This document shows, piece by piece, positions 26,029 through 34,711 of a stretch of 64,000 nt of DNA (positions are counted from its first letter, which is position 1; every line of letters begins with the position of its first letter). The position numbers and the translations under genes were made by a program. The notes below the pieces were generated by a model. The model was not told the DNA's origin. It saw only the letters and a program-made list of their open reading frames with translations, and made no database searches. This stretch comes from Methanosalsum zhilinae DSM 4017 (GTDB taxonomy: Archaea; Halobacteriota; Methanosarcinia; Methanosarcinales; Methanosarcinaceae), in the NCBI RefSeq assembly GCF_000217995.1, contig NC_015676.1, positions 1,967,708-2,031,707 on the forward strand, read 5' to 3'.

Positions 26029-26487
26029 TTACTCTTTTTTTTCCGGATCTGAAATATTACAGACCTCACATGTTTCATCACAGGTATTTTCACCGTTATC
26101 AAAAATGTGATCAATCGCCCTTGTACCTTCTGCAAGAACAGCTGCGTTGGAAAGGGTACCTCCAATAAGGACAGCATCAAATATTTCTTCCTTTTTAATT
26201 CCAAGTCTTCTGGCAACCTTTATGTGCATTTTAAGGCAGTGCTCACACCGGAGTGCAGAAGATACGCCAATACAGATCATTTCAATCGTTTTTGGATCTA
26301 AGCGCTTAAATTCACGCATTATAGAATTATCATACATAACCTTGGGTATAAAGAGTTCAGGTTTATCCTTCATAAAATTCAGGATATATGGAACCTCACC
26401 ATACCAGTCCTCAATATCTTCAAGCAGTTGAGATACAGCTTCTTCAGGTTCTTCTTCCAGAACCTCTTTTATTTTTTCAGTATCCAT
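26029..26487 (-). CDS. AhpD/carboxymuconolactone decarboxylase-like protein with Cys-rich tail
   Basis: A 152-residue alpha-helical protein of the CMD/AhpD superfamily. The redox motif is C81-E-H-C84-x3-H88, which in AhpD works as a thiol peroxidase or disulfide reductase centre. The preceding segment (DWYGEVPYILNFM) is also family-like. The last 20 residues add three more cysteines (C136, C140, C143), a pattern that could bind metal or pass electrons and is not part of the basic fold. It lies 40 bases downstream of the mmp7 stop on the same strand. It may therefore be the last gene of the MCR-activation transcript. Confidence 0.85.
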   Translation of the reverse strand: MDTEKIKEVLEEEPEEAVSQLLEDIEDWYGEVPYILNFMKDKPELFIPKVMYDNSIMREFKRLDPKTIEMICIGVSSALRCEHCLKMHIKVARRLGIKKEEIFDAVLIGGTLSNAAVLAEGTRAIDHIFDNGENTCDETCEVCNISDPEKKE

Positions 26488-26527: not shown

Positions 26528-27463
26528 TCAGATAGAAAATCCTATATCTGATTTATTTTTGAGCTTTATTAATATATAATTTTTCATCATTGAGGGGGTA
26601 ATATCAGCAACTTCCGACAGCCTGAACCCCTCATCAAATTCTATATTCCCGATTTTTTCATGATACTGGTCATAGGGAAGTTTTACTCTGAGTCCATTAA
26701 GCTGGAGTGTGATAGGAGAGGGTGTGAGCACGTTTGATATATCTGGCACCTGATCCTGTATTTCTTTCATGACCCTTGCTGCGAGAACTACAGGAGGATC
26801 CTTTGAGAGATCTTCCCTGACACGATCAACCAGTTCACCTACCTTTTTGTTCATAACATCAAGTGCATTTAGTTCCTCACTTTTGCGCATACGGTGTGGA
26901 ATACGTCCAATATTGCCAATATACAGATCGGCTCCTGAAACATCTTCTGTTGAAAGTTCAGGACCTCCGGTTACAACAATCGGTATTTCGATCCCTTCAA
27001 ACAAACTCGTCTTTTTGTTCATAATACAGTCACTGAATATTCCAAAGGAGTAGAGTGCAATATCATGTTCATTGATCAGTTTTCTCTCATAGTCATTAAG
27101 CATTGCAACTCTTCGCCCCATACCCCTGGCAAGTCCGATCATATTGGTGTTGGCACCATCTCTTCTGAGATGTTCAGCAATATCACAGGCCGAATGCGGA
27201 AGATGGTGATATGCAAGAGTGGGAGACACAACTGCTATCTCAACCCCTGTTAAAGGAGCTTTTGTGAGTTTGCCAAGAAGGTTTCCAGCAAGATCCTGTA
27301 CCAGAGGCACATCTTCTTTTGGAATAAACATTATGAGTGTAACTTCGGTTGCTGCAGGCGTTTTCTGTACAAGATACCCGCCAATATCCTCCAGAAGTTC
27401 AAGCATCAGGCCATGCTTGTGAATACCACCTTCATATATATATGGTTCAAGTACCCTTGACAT
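26528..27463 (-). CDS. mmp7: Methanogenesis marker protein 7
   Basis: A 311-residue protein found only in methanogens and relatives. It is known as a component of the complex that activates methyl-coenzyme M reductase, together with McrC, Mmp17, Mmp3 and component A2. Recognisable segments are YEGGIHKHG near the N-terminus, LAYHHLPHSACDIAEHLRRDGA in the middle and TGGPELSTEDVSGADLYIGNIGRIP. It has several conserved Cys and His residues but no standard cofactor motif. It is the last mmp gene of the cluster and overlaps mmp17 by 17 bases. Confidence 0.93.
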   Translation of the reverse strand: MSRVLEPYIYEGGIHKHGLMLELLEDIGGYLVQKTPAATEVTLIMFIPKEDVPLVQDLAGNLLGKLTKAPLTGVEIAVVSPTLAYHHLPHSACDIAEHLRRDGANTNMIGLARGMGRRVAMLNDYERKLINEHDIALYSFGIFSDCIMNKKTSLFEGIEIPIVVTGGPELSTEDVSGADLYIGNIGRIPHRMRKSEELNALDVMNKKVGELVDRVREDLSKDPPVVLAARVMKEIQDQVPDISNVLTPSPITLQLNGLRVKLPYDQYHEKIGNIEFDEGFRLSEVADITPSMMKNYILIKLKNKSDIGFSI

Positions 27464-28061
27464 TACTATCGCCTCCGCTGATCTTTACTAGCATTTCATG
27501 GGCCTGCTCGATCCACTTATCCTGCATTACTTCCTCACTTGCAACAAATATGAATTGGTTATCTTCAAAATAATGATAACGTACTCTAAAACCTTCAGGT
27601 GCTGCCCTTATTGCCATCTCCGCAAGTTTTGACTGGAGCGTCTTCTGAGGATCATCCACAACCATATCAGCTATCACATCGATTTCGCTTTCCGGGTCAT
27701 CACACAGTATTTTCAGAGTTCTGCGCTCTGGCTGAAGAACATTTGGACGCTGATATTTCTCCCATAGGTTCCCCAGAAGCTGCGGGAGATATTTTTCAGT
27801 GTCCAGTTTGATGAGTACACCCTTTTCACCTGAATTTGTTGTATCAAGAGTGGAAAAATCAGAGACCTTTACCGGAGAAAAACTTTTTCTCAGAACAATC
27901 GCCATCTGAAAAACAGAATCCTGTGGCCTAATAGATACGTATATTCTTCCAATAGCATTTACAAGGTTCAGGTCCGATATAATATCTTCAAGTATCATTC
28001 TATAGCTACTGGCTTCAGAATCAATTGCAGATTCCACAATAAACTCTTCAAGGACATCCAT
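27447..28061 (-). CDS. mmp17: Methanogenesis marker protein 17
   Basis: A 204-residue methanogen-specific protein that co-purifies with the MCR activation complex. It has no recognisable enzyme motif; the fold looks alpha/beta, and the C-terminal half carries the family segment GFRVRYHYFEDNQFIF. An in-frame upstream start (28091) would overlap mmp15 and lacks a ribosome site. GGAGG nine bases before ATG 28061 fixes the start just after the mmp15 stop. It overlaps mmp7 downstream, so translation is coupled along the cluster. Confidence 0.92.
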   Translation of the reverse strand: MDVLEEFIVESAIDSEASSYRMILEDIISDLNLVNAIGRIYVSIRPQDSVFQMAIVLRKSFSPVKVSDFSTLDTTNSGEKGVLIKLDTEKYLPQLLGNLWEKYQRPNVLQPERRTLKILCDDPESEIDVIADMVVDDPQKTLQSKLAEMAIRAAPEGFRVRYHYFEDNQFIFVASEEVMQDKWIEQAHEMLVKISGGDSNVKGT

Positions 28062-28065
28062 TGAA

Positions 28066-29376
28066 TCAATCCTCCACAAAACCTGATGCAAGAAGTGCTG
28101 CCCCTACAGCACCTATCAGATGTGAGTTGGGAGGTACAAGAACATCGATCTTGAGCAGATCTCCCAGTGCACGGGGTATTCCTTCAATAAGAGAAGAACC
28201 GCCTACCAGTATCAGTGGCTCATTGACCTCAATTTCCTGCAGCTGCTGTTCAAATATCTGTTCCACTACACTGTAGCAGGCTGCAGCCGCAACATCTTCA
28301 GGAGACGCCCCCTTTGCAAGTGAGTTTACGAGTGACTGAATTCCAAAAACAATACAGTAGCTGTTCATTTGAATGTTTTCCTGCATACCTTTAACAGCCA
28401 GTGATCCAAGATCAGTGATATCAACTCCAAGCCTTTTGGCAGTCATTTCAAGAAATCGTCCTGATGCACCAGCACAGATACCACCCATTGTGAACATCCC
28501 GGGTATTGCATCCTCTACAGCTATTGCCTTATTATCCATCCCACCAATATCAATTACCGTTGCAGGACCCTTTTGCCTGTCTGCAAGATACACTGCACCC
28601 TTGGAGTTTACAGTGATTTCTTCCTGAACCAGCTGGGCATTAAAATGATCCCCTATAAGAAATCTACCATAACCTGTTGTTCCGATTGCCTGGATGTGTT
28701 CTCTATCAACATCTGCCTCATCCAGAGCCTTCTGAAGGGCTTTTTCTGCACTGTCTATAACCTTTACTGTAGGTACCCAGCCCTGTCCTATAATCTTGTT
28801 ATCACGCATTACCACAGCCTTGGTTGTGGTGGACCCGGAATCAATACCTGCTGTTAGGCCAGACTGGGATTCCCTGGCCAGCAAGTTCTTGCGCCTTGCA
28901 ACAGTTGTCAGTGCCTCCATACGGGTCAGTAGTGTAGCTGCTTTTGTCCTCTCAGTGAATGAATAGCTGATCACAGGTAAATCGGAATGATGGTGTATGT
29001 ATCTTCGAACTTCATTTCTGACAATTGCAGCTTCAGCGCATCTAAAGCACGTAGTTATAAGCACACCATCGACCTTTGTAACCCCTTCAATTATCGATTT
29101 TGTGCGAGCCATTACCAGTTTAAGGTCAGGACTTGCAACTTCCAGCCCAAAATCCCTGCCCACATTATCAAGTTCATATACTGATATCTCAGGATATACC
29201 AGTTCAGCATTGACATCCTTTGCTGCTGATTCAAGTTCTGCCTGCACACCGGAATATTCAGATCCGCATGATAGCAATGCAATCTTTACAGACCTTTCCT
29301 CTGATGCACGTTCTGTTCTTCTTTTCTGAACATCATACACAGGCAGTCCTTTACCCGACAGCTGTTCTCCTGTCAC
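28066..29376 (-). CDS. mmp15: Methanogenesis marker protein 15, ASKHA ATPase of the HgdC activator type
   Basis: A 436-residue protein in two parts. The N-terminal domain (about 30-165) has an ITTCFRC motif (C110, C113) and C37. The C-terminal domain (about 174-436) is an ASKHA ATPase like the activators of 2-hydroxyacyl-CoA dehydratases: phosphate loop [23 protein letters not shown], then C301 ([11 protein letters not shown]) and C341 (NSYCIVFG). Those two cysteines stand where HgdC dimers hold their bridging 4Fe-4S cluster. HgdC uses ATP to push an electron to very low potential. The same task is needed to reduce Ni(II)-F430, so an electron-injecting role is a sound inference. It overlaps mmp5 by four bases. 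Confidence 0.93.
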
Positions 29377-29879
29377 TGACCGTCCTCCTCAGAATTTTCA
29401 CTATTACCGTTCTGTGGCAGCGATTTCAAGAAATCTGCAATCTTTGATACAAATTCTCTGCCCTCATCCTCATTTCGAGGATAATTAACTTCAAGTACCG
29501 GAATATCCCTCTGTCTTATCAGATATTTGGTCAGCTCATTGGTCCTTGCACAACCCATGCATCCAAAAGCTATATCAGGTTCGTTAACGATTATTGCAGC
29601 CTCAGCCTCCTCTATCAGGGGGCCAACCAGAGCCATTCTGCCCCTTACACCAGAGGGAACCTCAACTGCTGCATACTTAAGTCCAAGCTTTGGTTCCCTG
29701 GGAGTAATGTTTAGAGGAGGGGAATCAATACCCACAGTATTTATTTTCTCCCGTATCTGTTCCATCATTACCAGTGGTCTATGTCCAAAGCGCCTTACAA
29801 GATCAGATAATATGAGGCTGGTTGTTGGATAAATCATGACTTTTGCCAATGGTCTCAACTCGCATTCATTCAGATTCAA
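29373..29879 (-). CDS. mmp5: Methanogenesis marker protein 5
   Basis: A 168-residue methanogen-specific protein. The conserved core is [16 protein letters not shown], with a CxxC that could bind metal or Fe-S, preceded by the [16 protein letters not shown] region. Its biochemical role is not established, but it is always tied to methanogenesis gene sets. The ATG lies inside the end of mmp6 (14-base overlap) and its stop overlaps the start of mmp15, so it is translated within the coupled cluster. Confidence 0.92.
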
Positions 29880-30312
29880 TAAGTTGCTTTAATTTCGATG
29901 CCTTTAATTTTTTCTTTTCTTTAAATCCTTCTGGAGAAGGAATTCCTTTTTCATATGCTTCCAGACCCTTACTTATAAGGGGAAGAATGTTGATCTCCTC
30001 CCTCAGAAAATGAAAACCTGGCCTTGGCCCTCCTCCACGAACAGCACGGCATCTTCTCTCATCTCCGGGAGAAAAACCCCTCTCTTTTACAAAAATATGA
30101 TTTGGATCCATAGAAACAACTTCATCTACAACTTTTTCCACAAATCTTCTGGGTCCCTCTACCATTATCCCGAAACATGATTCTTTCACCGTAACATCTG
30201 CCTTTGAATGATATATCTTCATAGCCACATCTGAGGGAAGGACATTTTCCGAGTTCACTACTATAATCCGGGTTATTATGTCATCAGTATCCATTTCATT
30301 TTCCGGAGACAT
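29866..30312 (-). CDS. mmp6: Methanogenesis marker protein 6
   Basis: A methanogen-specific protein of about 148 residues. The family signature is the CRAVRGGGPRPGFHFLREE stretch, with the preceding ERGFSPGDERR. An upstream in-frame codon (30342) exists, but ATG 30312 has GGGGGAAG just before it and overlaps the mmp3 end by only 17 bases. A second ATG at 30294 (MDTDD) lies just past the mmp3 stop and is also possible. The C-terminus is Lys-rich. The function is unknown; the context is MCR activation. Confidence 0.9.
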   Translation of the reverse strand: MSPENEMDTDDIITRIIVVNSENVLPSDVAMKIYHSKADVTVKESCFGIMVEGPRRFVEKVVDEVVSMDPNHIFVKERGFSPGDERRCRAVRGGGPRPGFHFLREEINILPLISKGLEAYEKGIPSPEGFKEKKKLKASKLKQLIESE

Positions 30313-31879
30313 CGTCTTCCCCCATATCAGGCATTTCCACAATATACATGAAATCTCCTTCCTTCAGGTTCTTAAGTTTATGTGGTTCAAGTACTTTACC
30401 TATGATATTTGTATTGGCAAATTTTTCTCCTGTTGGTCCAAAGAGATCATCATCTTCGATCTTGATCCCGATAGTTCCCATTCTTTTTGAGGCCTGATTT
30501 GTAATTCCAATATCCCCCGAATGAATTATTTTTGAGGGAGTGTTCTCAGGAAATATTTCTTTGTGTATTTTTAGATCTTTTTCAGGATCAAATATGTAGG
30601 TCGTGTCATAGATCATGTCTGCCTTCATGGTACCCACTCTGTTGAATTTGAGACCTACCGAGCTTCTGAAATAATCGATACTCTTTGGGGCAAGATCATC
30701 GTATAGTCTTATTTTAACCAGATTTGAAGATGGAATGGTTTTTACAATCACCTCAGATCCACCCAGTATATCAATTGTGGTTTCGGGCCTCTGCTCTACA
30801 ACAACTGCATCATCACTTTCATAACCCTCTACAATAATTTTCACACCGGATTCTAAGAGAGACTCACGAGCCTCATGTAAACTCATTCCTGAAAGCATTA
30901 TTTGGTCCGGCACTGTCAGTACAGTAAGTCTGTGACCAGGTCGGGCCATTTTTACAAGTTCGATACCCTCCTTTACATGACCAATCACAGAATGCATGAT
31001 CGTTGCCGGCATATCAGTTCTGGAAATGAACACCTTTCCTGTGCCATATCCTGCAGTTCTGACAGAAACCGAACCCTGTATACGTGGTTCAAAATTTTCA
31101 TACCTGCATTTTTCACCCTGAAGCCTGCGGTCGCAAATATAAGCACTTGCAGTTGCGTCAACTTTAAAAATGCCATTCTTTACAAGGGTAAAAAAATGTT
31201 TTACACCGTAGGGAGCATTGGGGGACATCTCTACACCGATAAATGAAAAGACCTGATCATCATGCTCAAGCCTGGTGGTGAGATCCGATGTGAATATACT
31301 ATTCCCTGCATGTTCCCACTTTATAACAGGTTTGATCTCAATGATCTCATCACCCTTATCAAGACCCATAAGAATATTCTTACCACTTACAACCCTGCCA
31401 AAGGCCCCATCCCTGGGCTGTCCGTATTCTCCGGTATGTTTCTGCCGGCATATTATAAGATGGGTATTATCAGTATCATATCCTCCTGCACCAAATAGAA
31501 CATCAAATTTATCAAAAGAAGCAGGCTCACGTTCGATACTGATATCAGCGGAGACCGATCCAAAAGCAACTGCATCCCTGCTCAGCCATCGCACACGCTT
31601 TCCTTCAAATTTTTTGAATAGTTGCACCCATGTCTGTACAGAATATTTCTCCAGATCATTTAGTTCGATCTCAACTTCTCCCTTTGATGTTATGATCCTG
31701 TAGCTTGTCACCTCTTCCTTTCGGTATTCCTCCGAAACTTTCAGAATACCTACAGAAGTGCCTGGGTTGTGAGGGGAATCTGTATGTTCCAGTGCGTCTG
31801 CTATCGTGGAGCCGCTTTTAAGTTCAACACTTTCTCCATTAACATTCAGAATAATGGTATCTTTATCCAGGATCCTCAT
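30296..31879 (-). CDS. mmp3: Methanogenesis marker protein 3
   Basis: A 527-residue protein specific to methanogens, reported in the MCR activation complex. The first 60 residues look like a small ubiquitin/ThiS-like beta-grasp (IILNVNGESVELKSGSTIADAL). A cyclophilin-like beta barrel part follows in the middle (HLIICRQKHTGEYGQPRDGAFGRVVSGKNILMGLDKGDEI). The C-terminal half repeats related strands (SGDIGITNQASKRMGTIGIKI). The protein carries a CDRRLQGEKC motif. The ribosome site AAGGAGG is ideal. It is second in the cluster, 38 bases after atwA. Confidence 0.93.
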   Translation of the reverse strand: MRILDKDTIILNVNGESVELKSGSTIADALEHTDSPHNPGTSVGILKVSEEYRKEEVTSYRIITSKGEVEIELNDLEKYSVQTWVQLFKKFEGKRVRWLSRDAVAFGSVSADISIEREPASFDKFDVLFGAGGYDTDNTHLIICRQKHTGEYGQPRDGAFGRVVSGKNILMGLDKGDEIIEIKPVIKWEHAGNSIFTSDLTTRLEHDDQVFSFIGVEMSPNAPYGVKHFFTLVKNGIFKVDATASAYICDRRLQGEKCRYENFEPRIQGSVSVRTAGYGTGKVFISRTDMPATIMHSVIGHVKEGIELVKMARPGHRLTVLTVPDQIMLSGMSLHEARESLLESGVKIIVEGYESDDAVVVEQRPETTIDILGGSEVIVKTIPSSNLVKIRLYDDLAPKSIDYFRSSVGLKFNRVGTMKADMIYDTTYIFDPEKDLKIHKEIFPENTPSKIIHSGDIGITNQASKRMGTIGIKIEDDDLFGPTGEKFANTNIIGKVLEPHKLKNLKEGDFMYIVEMPDMGEDDVSGK

Positions 31880-31917: not shown

Positions 31918-33528
31918 TTAAATATTTTCGGCTTCCATTCTCTCCTTTCCAGTAAATTCTAAAAGTACTTCTTCAGGTTCACCAATATCCACTATCTTGC
32001 CGTTTTTCATCAATGCTACCCTGTCACATACACTTTCAAGGAAATCGATATCATGAGAAACTATTATAAATGTATCGCCCATCTTCTCACGGGCATTGAG
32101 TATTGAAGAGGCAACTTCACCTTTTGTTACAGGGTCCATTGTGCCTGTGGGTTCATCCATTATCACAATATTGGGCTCCCTGATAAGCACCTGTGCAAGT
32201 GCAACCCTGTGCTTTTCCCCTTCACTGAGTTCAGTTGCCATTTTGGACAGTATATCCTTTGCTTTGCTCTCTGTGAATCCCGTTGCTGTAAGAGTTGTGA
32301 TAGCTTTTCTCACAGCAAGTTCATAGGGCAGGTCCAGACCAATTGATTCTGTGAGATTATCAATTACAGATCTCTGGATATACAATCCGTATTCCTGGTG
32401 AAGTATACCCATATACTGTGTGGCACGACCCCTATTGGAAGGACCCGGGACTGTCATGTCAATCCATTCATCACCAACTCTTACGTGCACGTCCCCGCCT
32501 GTTGGCTGGATATTACCAATCAATATCTTTGAGGTCGTGGTCTTACCTGCACCACTGGTACCTGCAAGTCCATAGATCTCTCCTTCATTGACCTCAAAAG
32601 AGATGTCATTTACAGCATATACAACCCCTCTGCTAACTGAGATATATTTTTTCACCAGATTTTCAACCTTGATTATAGGCTCCCCGCTCTCAGGCCTGGA
32701 GTTTCTTTCAATGGCTCCCACATGTTTCAGGAATTCATCTGCAACTTCTTTGGGATCACCCTCACTTACGATCTCGCCTTCTTCAAGAAAGATTGCCTTA
32801 TCAGCAACATCACTGATAACGTCAGGCCAGTGGGATGTGATTATCATTGACATATTGTAACGCCTGACAGCATTCATTATCACCTCATGGACTACATGTG
32901 AGGTATTTGGATCCAGGGTACCTGTAGGTTCATCTGCAAGCAGGAGCATTGGATTTTTCACAAGCTGCCTTGCAAGTACAACCCTCTGCTTCTCACCTCC
33001 GCTAAGATCACGGGCTACATGGGTCATTCGATGAGACAGCTGAACCTGATCCAGTATTTCCATTGCCTTTGAAAGAGCATCAGTACCGGTATATCCAATC
33101 TCAGTAAGTGCATTTGTCACATTGGAAATGACCTTCTCATCACCGTAAAGTGCAAAAGTACGCTGAAGCATGATTGCAATCCTTCGGGTTATCCTGCGTC
33201 TTACAGGGTCATGCACCGGAAGCTTTACAAAATCAGCGCTAAAAGGCTTGAGTTCACCTCCGCATTTTTCACATTTCTTGCCGGCTTTACTTGGAGGTTC
33301 AACATATTCACAATCCTCACAGCCTGCAAGATGGTATATAACTTCCCCACTGATATTACCGTATTCATCAAATCCTCGAAGCACATGCATCAGAACAGTT
33401 TTACCAGCACCGCTTTTACCAAGTATTCCAATAACTTCGCCTTCATTGATAGTTAGATTAATATTTTTTAAGACCTTTATATCCCCAAAGCTCAAATTGA
33501 GGTTCTTTATCTCTATAAATAATGACAT
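31918..33528 (-). CDS. atwA: AtwA (component A2), ABC-type ATPase for methyl-coenzyme M reductase activation
   Basis: A 536-residue soluble protein with two ABC ATPase domains and no membrane part. Domain 1 has Walker A GKSGAGKT (37-44), signature LSGGEKQR and Walker [10 protein letters not shown]. Domain 2 has [17 protein letters not shown] and [10 protein letters not shown] zinc-knuckle insert (C70, C73, C86, C89) interrupts domain 1 after Walker A. Component A2 supplies ATP hydrolysis for reductive activation of MCR. An upstream in-frame start (33591) is unlikely: GGAGG seven bases before ATG 33528 is decisive. It heads the atwA-mmp3-mmp6-mmp5-mmp15-mmp17-mmp7 cluster. Confidence 0.95.
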
Positions 33529-33596
33529 CTGTATCCTCCAGGTGGATAAATACGCATTTGAATCAAATATTCTCCTGCAGTTATTTATCATTTAAA

Positions 33597-33796: not shown

Positions 33797-34600
33797 TCAC
33801 ATGGAATTTACAACATCTATCACTTCTTTTATATCATGAACTATCACATCAGCTGAGCATTGCAGTTTTTCAGATACTTTTCCCTTACCTCCAGAGATCA
33901 ATACTCCCAGGTCAGCTGCCCTTAGAGCACGTATATCATTCAGTCCGTCACCGACCATGATAACTGAATCATATTCTGATTTAAGACTATGTATGATCTC
34001 CTCTTTAGTATCCACATTTGCTATTGCAAAAACCCTCTCAAAGGGGACACCGATCCTTTCTGCCAGTGGACCAAGATTTGTCATGCTGTCACCTGAAGCT
34101 ATATAAATATCAATACCTTTGACTTTCAAGGAATCAATGGTATCGACTGTATTGGAATATATTCTCCCACCGGTGCTCAGCACATAAGCAATTCTGCACA
34201 GCTCAGAGTCCAGTATCAGCCCTTCTGCAAAATAGAACACATTTCTGCATTTGTGACGCACCCTGTATATAACATCCTGAAGGGATTGGATTTTTACATG
34301 GGGGTTCTTTTTAAGGATAAAAAATGCTTCCTGTACAGAAAACGGCTCACCTGAGCAGCTAATATCAATGGAAACATTATTTTCACATATGTACTGTACA
34401 ATTGGGATGTGTTCATCAGCTTTGAGAATATTATCAGCATCTGTGTGCAGCATGACCAGTGCCTGTCCTGCTTTTTGTGCTACCAGTGAAATTGTTTCAA
34501 TACCATCCAGTATGATACCGGTATTCGGGTCCTTTGCCACACGATACATCTGCATAAGGGTCCCTGCACTGTCAAATACCACTGCGATATTTCCTGACAT
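33797..34600 (-). CDS. Soluble HAD-superfamily protein related to P-type ATPase P-domains
   Basis: A protein of about 267 residues with the HAD core: nucleophile D10 in VVFDSAGTL, a Ser/Thr motif near IYIASGDS, and the acidic motif VMVGDGLNDIRALRAADLG, which is very like the hinge of P-type ATPases. The residue two after the nucleophile is Ala (A12), not the Asp of ordinary HAD phosphatases or the Thr of ATPases; phosphonatases also have Ala here. The substrate is therefore open. ATG 34666 would add 22 residues of poor quality, so I start at 34600, just before the nucleophile strand. It may be related to the free-standing archaeal HAD ATPase-like proteins. Confidence 0.82.
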   Translation of the reverse strand: MSGNIAVVFDSAGTLMQMYRVAKDPNTGIILDGIETISLVAQKAGQALVMLHTDADNILKADEHIPIVQYICENNVSIDISCSGEPFSVQEAFFILKKNPHVKIQSLQDVIYRVRHKCRNVFYFAEGLILDSELCRIAYVLSTGGRIYSNTVDTIDSLKVKGIDIYIASGDSMTNLGPLAERIGVPFERVFAIANVDTKEEIIHSLKSEYDSVIMVGDGLNDIRALRAADLGVLISGGKGKVSEKLQCSADVIVHDIKEVIDVVNSM

Positions 34601-34711
34601 ATACTGAAAATTTGCATCATATATGATTAGTATTTCCACAGAACAGTGTGCCCTGCAAATTCCCAAATCATTTTATCTAGATGAAAGAATAATAGCTAAT
34701 AGTAGAAAATA

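Follow-up and report, generated by a model that had tools for sequence, protein, structure and literature searches.

Mmp15 of Methanosalsum zhilinae, an activator-type ATPase with a predicted HGD-D-like domain, is a candidate electron donor for MCR activation

Mmp15 of M. zhilinae has the build of an HgdC-type activator, carries a fused domain of acceptor type and is encoded in a neighborhood of MCR activators. This combination makes Mmp15 a promising candidate for the electron donor that MCR activation still lacks. Its function as an ATP-driven low-potential electron injector of the MCR activation machinery is proposed here with moderate confidence, and by analogy with characterized activators this appears to be the best reading. 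The family, fold, cysteine invariance, N-terminal domain homology, gene context and co-occurrence with McrA are all supported by the data presented below. The homology to activases is already known from annotation: a "CoA-substrate-specific enzyme activase", arCOG02679, is in a methanogen core list (PMC4153887), and is taken to be the same protein as Mmp15 (TIGR03286). The surprise therefore lies in the set of invariant cysteines, the acceptor-type N-terminal domain, the pairing with Mmp5 and the tight link to McrA. The literature search turned up no account of Mmp15 as an electron donor, of its HGD-D-like domain or of its invariant cluster cysteines.

The M. zhilinae genome is one contig of 2,138,444 bases, and the window analyzed is a stretch of 64,000 nucleotides from it. 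Within the window, mmp15 lies in a minus-strand string of near-touching or overlapping genes, listed here in order:

31918-33591, minus strand: atwA, encoding component A2, the ABC ATPase of MCR activation (TIGR03269, 852 bits; PMC12176620)
30296-31879, minus strand: mmp3, a member of the solved MCR activation complex (PDB 8s7v_J, E 3.4e-81)
29866-30342, minus strand: mmp6 (TIGR03272), with invariant C56 and C98 (123/123)
29373-29879, minus strand: mmp5 (TIGR03271, DUF2112), with an HGD-D-like profile and an invariant CxxC pair, C107 and C110 (136/136)
28066-29376, minus strand: mmp15, encoding 436 aa with an HGD-D-like N-terminal domain and an HgdC-type activator ATPase
27447-28091, minus strand: mmp17, a member of the solved MCR activation complex (PDB 8s7v_G, E 9.5e-9)
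26528-27463, minus strand: mmp7 (McrC-like), with invariant C93 and C146 (134/134)

The ORF at 28066-29376, reported in a preliminary description with no strand given, is real and belongs to the minus strand; the plus strand over the same interval is riddled with stops. The start codon is a GTG with a GGAGG-like site about 8 bases before it, and it overlaps the mmp5 stop by 4 bases (GTGA). Mmp15 matches TIGR03286 (methan_mark_15) over the full model (positions 1-404) with 728 bits against a cut-off of 455.75. It also matches the acyl-CoA dehydratase activase model TIGR00241 (315 bits, cut-off 125.4) and PF01869 (219 bits), which cover residues 175-430. The AF2 model of the whole protein has a pLDDT of 86 and a pTM of 0.85. 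The closest named relative found is Methanosalsum natronophilum, whose Mmp15 is 85% identical.

Several neighbors of Mmp15 have features of their own. Mmp7 C93 and C146 are the probable equivalents of the FeSII and FeSIII cysteines C90 and C143 of M. maripaludis Mmp7 (PMC12176620), since the spacing is equal (53) and the offset constant (+3). The first ABC domain of A2 has nearly invariant CxxC pairs (C91, C94, C107 and C110), and A2 also has an invariant C522; these cysteines suggest a metal site. An AhpD-like protein with a CEHC motif (26029-26487, minus strand) adjoins mmp7 on its downstream side and on the same strand. The string is flanked on one side by the gene for an intramembrane protease of the presenilin family (NF041679; 25129-26022, plus strand) and on the other by that for a HAD-family protein (33797-34666, minus strand), relatives of both of which recur in many of the fetched loci as families of 38 and 52 members.

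Mmp15 and McrA have nearly the same distribution. Among 246 Halobacteriota genomes, cross-tabulated by hand, full-length Mmp15 is present in 145 and McrA in 135, with both in 134. Mmp5 occurs in 144 of the same 246 genomes, all within the Mmp15 set. The 11 genomes with Mmp15 but no McrA are mostly draft assemblies of family f10. Within family f9, full Mmp15 and McrA occur in exactly the same five genomes, and many relatives have stand-alone activators only. Mmp15 is also present in ethane-oxidizing archaea (L145, L146). The preliminary description placed Mmp15 in MCR activation; its association with that system holds, as it is encoded among activation-complex proteins and co-distributed with McrA, and the target itself we infer.

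Mmp5 is encoded immediately upstream of Mmp15 in 107 of the 113 loci with enough sequence, and the six exceptions are second Mmp15 copies in family f10. This family has two full-length Mmp15 paralogues, both of which keep all six cysteines described below. The more typical copy lies apart from Mmp5, with ribosomal-protein genes on one side and hisF on the other in L054, and the divergent copy adjoins Mmp5 (loci compared: L035, L045, L048, L054, L064 and L067 versus L046, L047, L063, L065 and L066). Mmp5 and Mmp6 form one fused ORF in genus g34 (L044, L057).

The C-terminal part of Mmp15 is the activator-type ATPase, with the following features:

28078-28860, minus strand: HgdC-type ASKHA ATPase domain, residues 173-433 (Foldseek)
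28819-28842, minus strand: ASKHA phosphate-1 motif DSGSTTTK, residues 179-186, kept in orthologues and matching HgdC
28528-28551, minus strand: ASKHA phosphate-2 motif DIGGMDNK, residues 276-283, with HgdC Q106 replaced by M280
28474-28476, minus strand: C301, predicted [4Fe-4S] ligand, aligned with HgdC C127 and Cys in 153/153
28354-28356, minus strand: C341, predicted [4Fe-4S] ligand, aligned with HgdC C166 and Cys in 153/153
28276-28278, minus strand: C367, an additional invariant Cys (153/153) at the position of HgdC H192

The best fold match of this half is MbdQ (9gai_D; TMt 0.93, rmsd 1.5), along with HgdC (1hux, TMt 0.91), HadI (4eht, TMt 0.89) and DCCP-R (7yyl_E, TMt 0.82). TGYGR (234-238) and the C-terminal GG of ASKHA proteins are also present. 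The complete HgdC-type ASKHA ATPase proposed at the outset is thus borne out by the TIGR00241 and PF01869 scores and by the predicted fold, and both Fe-S cysteines of HgdC are kept, at the positions first reported (C301 in GGICAGASG, C341 in NSYCIVFG). They also match the equivalent residues of HadI and MbdQ in the alignment. In the AF2 model C301 opens a helix and C341 immediately precedes helix 342-354, a placement that resembles the helix-cluster-helix arrangement of HgdC (1hux). By analogy, C301 and C341 would meet at the dimer interface.

C37, C110, C113, C301, C341 and C367 are each Cys in 153/153 full-length Mmp15 orthologues (144 distinct). This set covers the Halobacteriota, mainly Methanosarcinales and their relatives, with class I methanogens, TACK and Asgard archaea outside it. 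Since C301 and C341 are Cys in all 153, they are no chance feature. C367 was absent from the initial list of cysteines, though equally invariant; its column is H in 13 of 21 stand-alone activators.

Mmp15 is filed as a distinct relative inside the activator superfamily rather than as an HgdC orthologue, based on a residue comparison of 21 Mmp15 proteins with 21 stand-alone activators and structures. D179, G181, S182, K186, TGYGR, D276, GG, K283, C301, GRF, C341 and F344 are common to both groups. HgdC Q106, in the GGQD motif, is Q in 21/21 stand-alone activators and structures and is M280 in Mmp15 (GGMDNK), so ATP hydrolysis might differ. Around the first Cys, the preceding NDK of HgdC is GGI and the following AGT is GAS, and after the second Cys, ESEV becomes I/T-Q-S-L. 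None of the GGQD Q, the NDKC flank and the ESEV flank, common to all 21 stand-alone activators, is kept in Mmp15, and the replacement residues are nearly as fixed as those that they replace. With these flanks replaced, the docking of Mmp15 cannot be assumed by analogy to HgdC. In a maximum-likelihood tree, Mmp15 forms one side of a 100/100 branch that is 3.2 changes long. We infer that these replacements reflect adaptation to another partner.

The N-terminal domain appears to be a remote homologue of the C-terminal half-domain of HGD-D, a relationship that goes beyond the preliminary description, and has the following features:

28861-29295, minus strand: HGD-D-like half-domain, residues 28-172 (AF2 of the domain alone, pLDDT 90; Foldseek; hhalign)
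29266-29268, minus strand: C37, at the end of the first strand of the domain, after strand 30-36 in the model (153/153)
29038-29049, minus strand: C110-x-x-C113, both cysteines 153/153

In a Foldseek search of 350,542 PDB chains, ranks 1-8 are all HGD-D proteins (HadB, DCCP, MbdO), with probabilities of 0.98-1.00, a best E of 4.9e-3 and TMq of 0.54-0.60. The agreement is specific, despite modest E-values and a high global rmsd. In hhalign, the domain matches the C-terminal end of HGD-D at 90.7% (score 47.6), and 150 column shuffles give no more than 7.6% (score 25.6). Against 25 families from the same loci, two HGD-D families are the top non-self matches (83% and 81%), Mmp5 is next at 28%, and the remaining families are at 2% or below. 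The kinship is visible in profile-profile and fold comparison only: a direct Pfam search of the domain gave no usable match, the M. zhilinae protein has no hit above the gathering score of PF06050 (the best value among 44 members is E 0.069), and PDB sequences searched with a profile yielded only a thioredoxin (E 0.18).

The universal cysteines of HGD-D are C80, C116 and C339 (numbering of the M. zhilinae protein, L005). The N-terminal half with C80 and C116 is missing from Mmp15, which aligns only C113, in hhalign, with C339, the C-terminal cluster cysteine, in a column that is Cys in 49/49 HGD-D; the TRxEA tail also matches. C37 and C110, which the preliminary description correctly listed with C113, are new positions with no equivalent among the known HGD-D ligands. 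The assignment of C37 as an HGD-D cluster ligand was dropped, as its column is Cys in 5/49 HGD-D and non-Cys in DCCP. A Methanosarcina Mmp15 (L131:1838-3184) has an in-frame insertion of several tens of residues within this domain.

HGD-D proteins are the components reduced by HgdC-type activators (DCCP, HadBC and Mbd members). Mmp15 therefore resembles an activator and a portion of its acceptor joined in one polypeptide. HGD-D itself is uncommon (25/147), so the usual activator partner is missing from most Mmp15 genomes. M. zhilinae has one separate DCCP/DCCP-R-type pair at 374-376 kb (NF040772, 488 bits; G000:C1:374395-376187, L005:1378-3296), and HGD-D is rare in the family, with one other genome (G138) listed. 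Mmp5 also matches HGD-D in hhalign (73%; shuffles at most 6.3%). Direct homology between the Mmp15 N-terminal domain and Mmp5 is not claimed: the profile match is 33%, with a score of 29.2 that hardly exceeds the best shuffle (28.3), and the case for a relationship between the two runs through HGD-D alone.

Mmp15 differs from each of the known systems that it resembles. HgdC and HadI (1hux, 4eht), the 2-hydroxyacyl-CoA dehydratase activators, share the ASKHA fold and both intersubunit [4Fe-4S] cysteines at 28-29% identity in the fold alignment, but have no fused N-terminal domain, and their invariant Q106, NDK and ESEV are replaced in Mmp15, which also has no adjoining dehydratase. The double-cubane system DCCP:DCCP-R (7yyl, 6eno) likewise combines an activator-type ATPase with an HGD-D protein, but its acceptor is a separate full-length protein, whereas that of Mmp15 would be a fused HGD-D-related half-domain. 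MbdPQ (9gai), the activator of class I 3-methylbenzoyl-CoA reductase, gives the ATPase half its closest match in fold (TM 0.93), and its partner subunit MbdO is among the best matches of the N-terminal domain. Unlike Mmp15, MbdPQ serves catabolic aromatic reduction and is made of two different subunits with no fused acceptor domain.

The published activation complex contains McrC, Mmp7, Mmp17, Mmp3, A2 and a DUF2098 protein; Mmp15 is not among them, and Mmp5 and Mmp6 are likewise not listed (PMC12176620). A2, Mmp3, Mmp17 and Mmp7 of the gene string are thus parts of the purified complex. No chain of 8s7v, 8s7x or 9h1l was matched in a PDB search with Mmp15, nor any chain of the solved complex in a search with Mmp5. 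Mmp5 and Mmp6 are DUFs with invariant Cys pairs, yet neither is named in the solved complex. Purification of tagged McrC does not bring down Mmp15 (PMC12176620, PMC9584954), so the two can be in contact only transiently or indirectly. In the complex, three nitrogenase-like clusters lead to F430, and FeSIII is near the surface at Mmp7/Mmp17 (PMC12176620). Activation in vitro depends on ATP and on Ti(III) citrate, which DTT cannot replace; auxiliary proteins are presumed to be necessary and missing, and no electron donor was identified (PMC12176620). The ATP need is explained by A2 and is therefore neutral with respect to Mmp15.

In the mechanism proposed here, one [4Fe-4S] cluster would be bound between the subunits of an Mmp15 homodimer by C301 and C341 from each, and ATP binding and hydrolysis in the ASKHA domains would bring single electrons to a very low potential. 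In contrast to HgdC, each subunit would carry a small HGD-D-related domain with its own three invariant cysteines, which, with Mmp5, probably accepts electrons or shapes the docking face. The electrons could then be passed on to the near-surface FeSIII at Mmp7/Mmp17 and through the FeS chain to F430. Mmp15 would thus supply what Ti(III) stands in for, namely ATP-energized single electrons. Cluster, dimer, docking partner and the direction in which electrons flow all belong to the proposal itself.

A bolder version, which we regard as tentative, is that Mmp15 and Mmp5 form a split activator/HGD-D enzyme. The HGD-D-like half-domain of Mmp15 would combine with Mmp5 to rebuild a cluster site (4Fe-4S, double-cubane or L-type), which would store ATP-energized electrons and discharge them into the L-cluster wire of Mmp7/McrC.

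Since Mmp15 is absent from the published complex, both an injector and an assembly role can be entertained, and L-cluster assembly is the main rival. Mmp15, Mmp5 and Mmp6 would then use ATP to assemble or insert clusters, reducing [8Fe-9S-C] clusters (nitrogenase-like, NifB-made) or loading them into McrC/Mmp7, instead of supplying electrons for each activation. The operon, co-occurrence and cysteine data suit a cluster-assembly ATPase equally well. The invariant cysteines of Mmp5, Mmp6 and Mmp15, none of which is listed in the purified complex (PMC12176620), would fit such a role, as would the NifB of M. zhilinae and the extra Mmp genes followed by nifB in M. marburgensis (PMC12176620). However, the purified complex, which already has its clusters, activates MCR only when given a strong artificial reductant, so it lacks a donor as well. 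The characterized activators with the ATPase fold of Mmp15 (HgdC, HadI, MbdPQ and DCCP-R) transfer electrons, and we know of no activator of HgdC-type fold that acts as an assembly factor. We consider an assembly role less likely than a donor role.

A second rival is that MCR receives its electrons from another system, such as a NifH-like Fe protein (for example CfbC) or the electron-bifurcating Hdr/Mvh complex, and that Mmp15 acts elsewhere, such as in a reductive step of the maturation of F430 or MCR. An Fe-protein homologue and the Hdr complex appear in accounts of the A3a fraction (PMC7581889, PMC12176620), and in M. zhilinae an intact NifH-like gene lies next to a NifD-like one. According to the ORF reading, however, that NifH-like gene sits with the NifD-like and cobyrinate-amidase-like genes, a context of F430 synthesis and not of activation, and Mmp15 adjoins the activation genes in most loci. 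We regard this alternative as rather unlikely. Even less credible is a nucleotide-driven chaperone with structural or zinc-binding cysteines and no redox cluster, for which the altered motifs around C301 and C341 and the loss of HgdC Q106 could speak, given that both cysteines lie at the exact cluster-ligand positions beside helix N-termini in 153/153 orthologues. Reactivation of the Mtr corrinoid by Mmp15 was also considered, and is unlikely because Methanomassiliicoccales, which have no Mtr, are reported to have the activase (PMC4153887).

The reduction of Ni(II)-F430 below -600 mV is a long-standing open question of methane biology, and the 2025 structure revealed the wire for the electrons without revealing their donor. 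Mmp15 is built like the enzymes known to energize single electrons with ATP, and within the sampled phylum its occurrence is confined almost exactly to genomes with MCR. Specific residues (C301, C341, C37, C110 and C113) and partners (Mmp5 and Mmp7) of Mmp15 are open to direct tests, and its role would bear on heterologous MCR production. If Mmp15 and Mmp5 do form a split enzyme, MCR activation would be an evolutionary sibling of benzoyl-CoA reductase/DCCP chemistry, coupled to nitrogenase-type clusters. Both methane-making and methane-eating archaea encode this ATPase beside the proteins that activate MCR.
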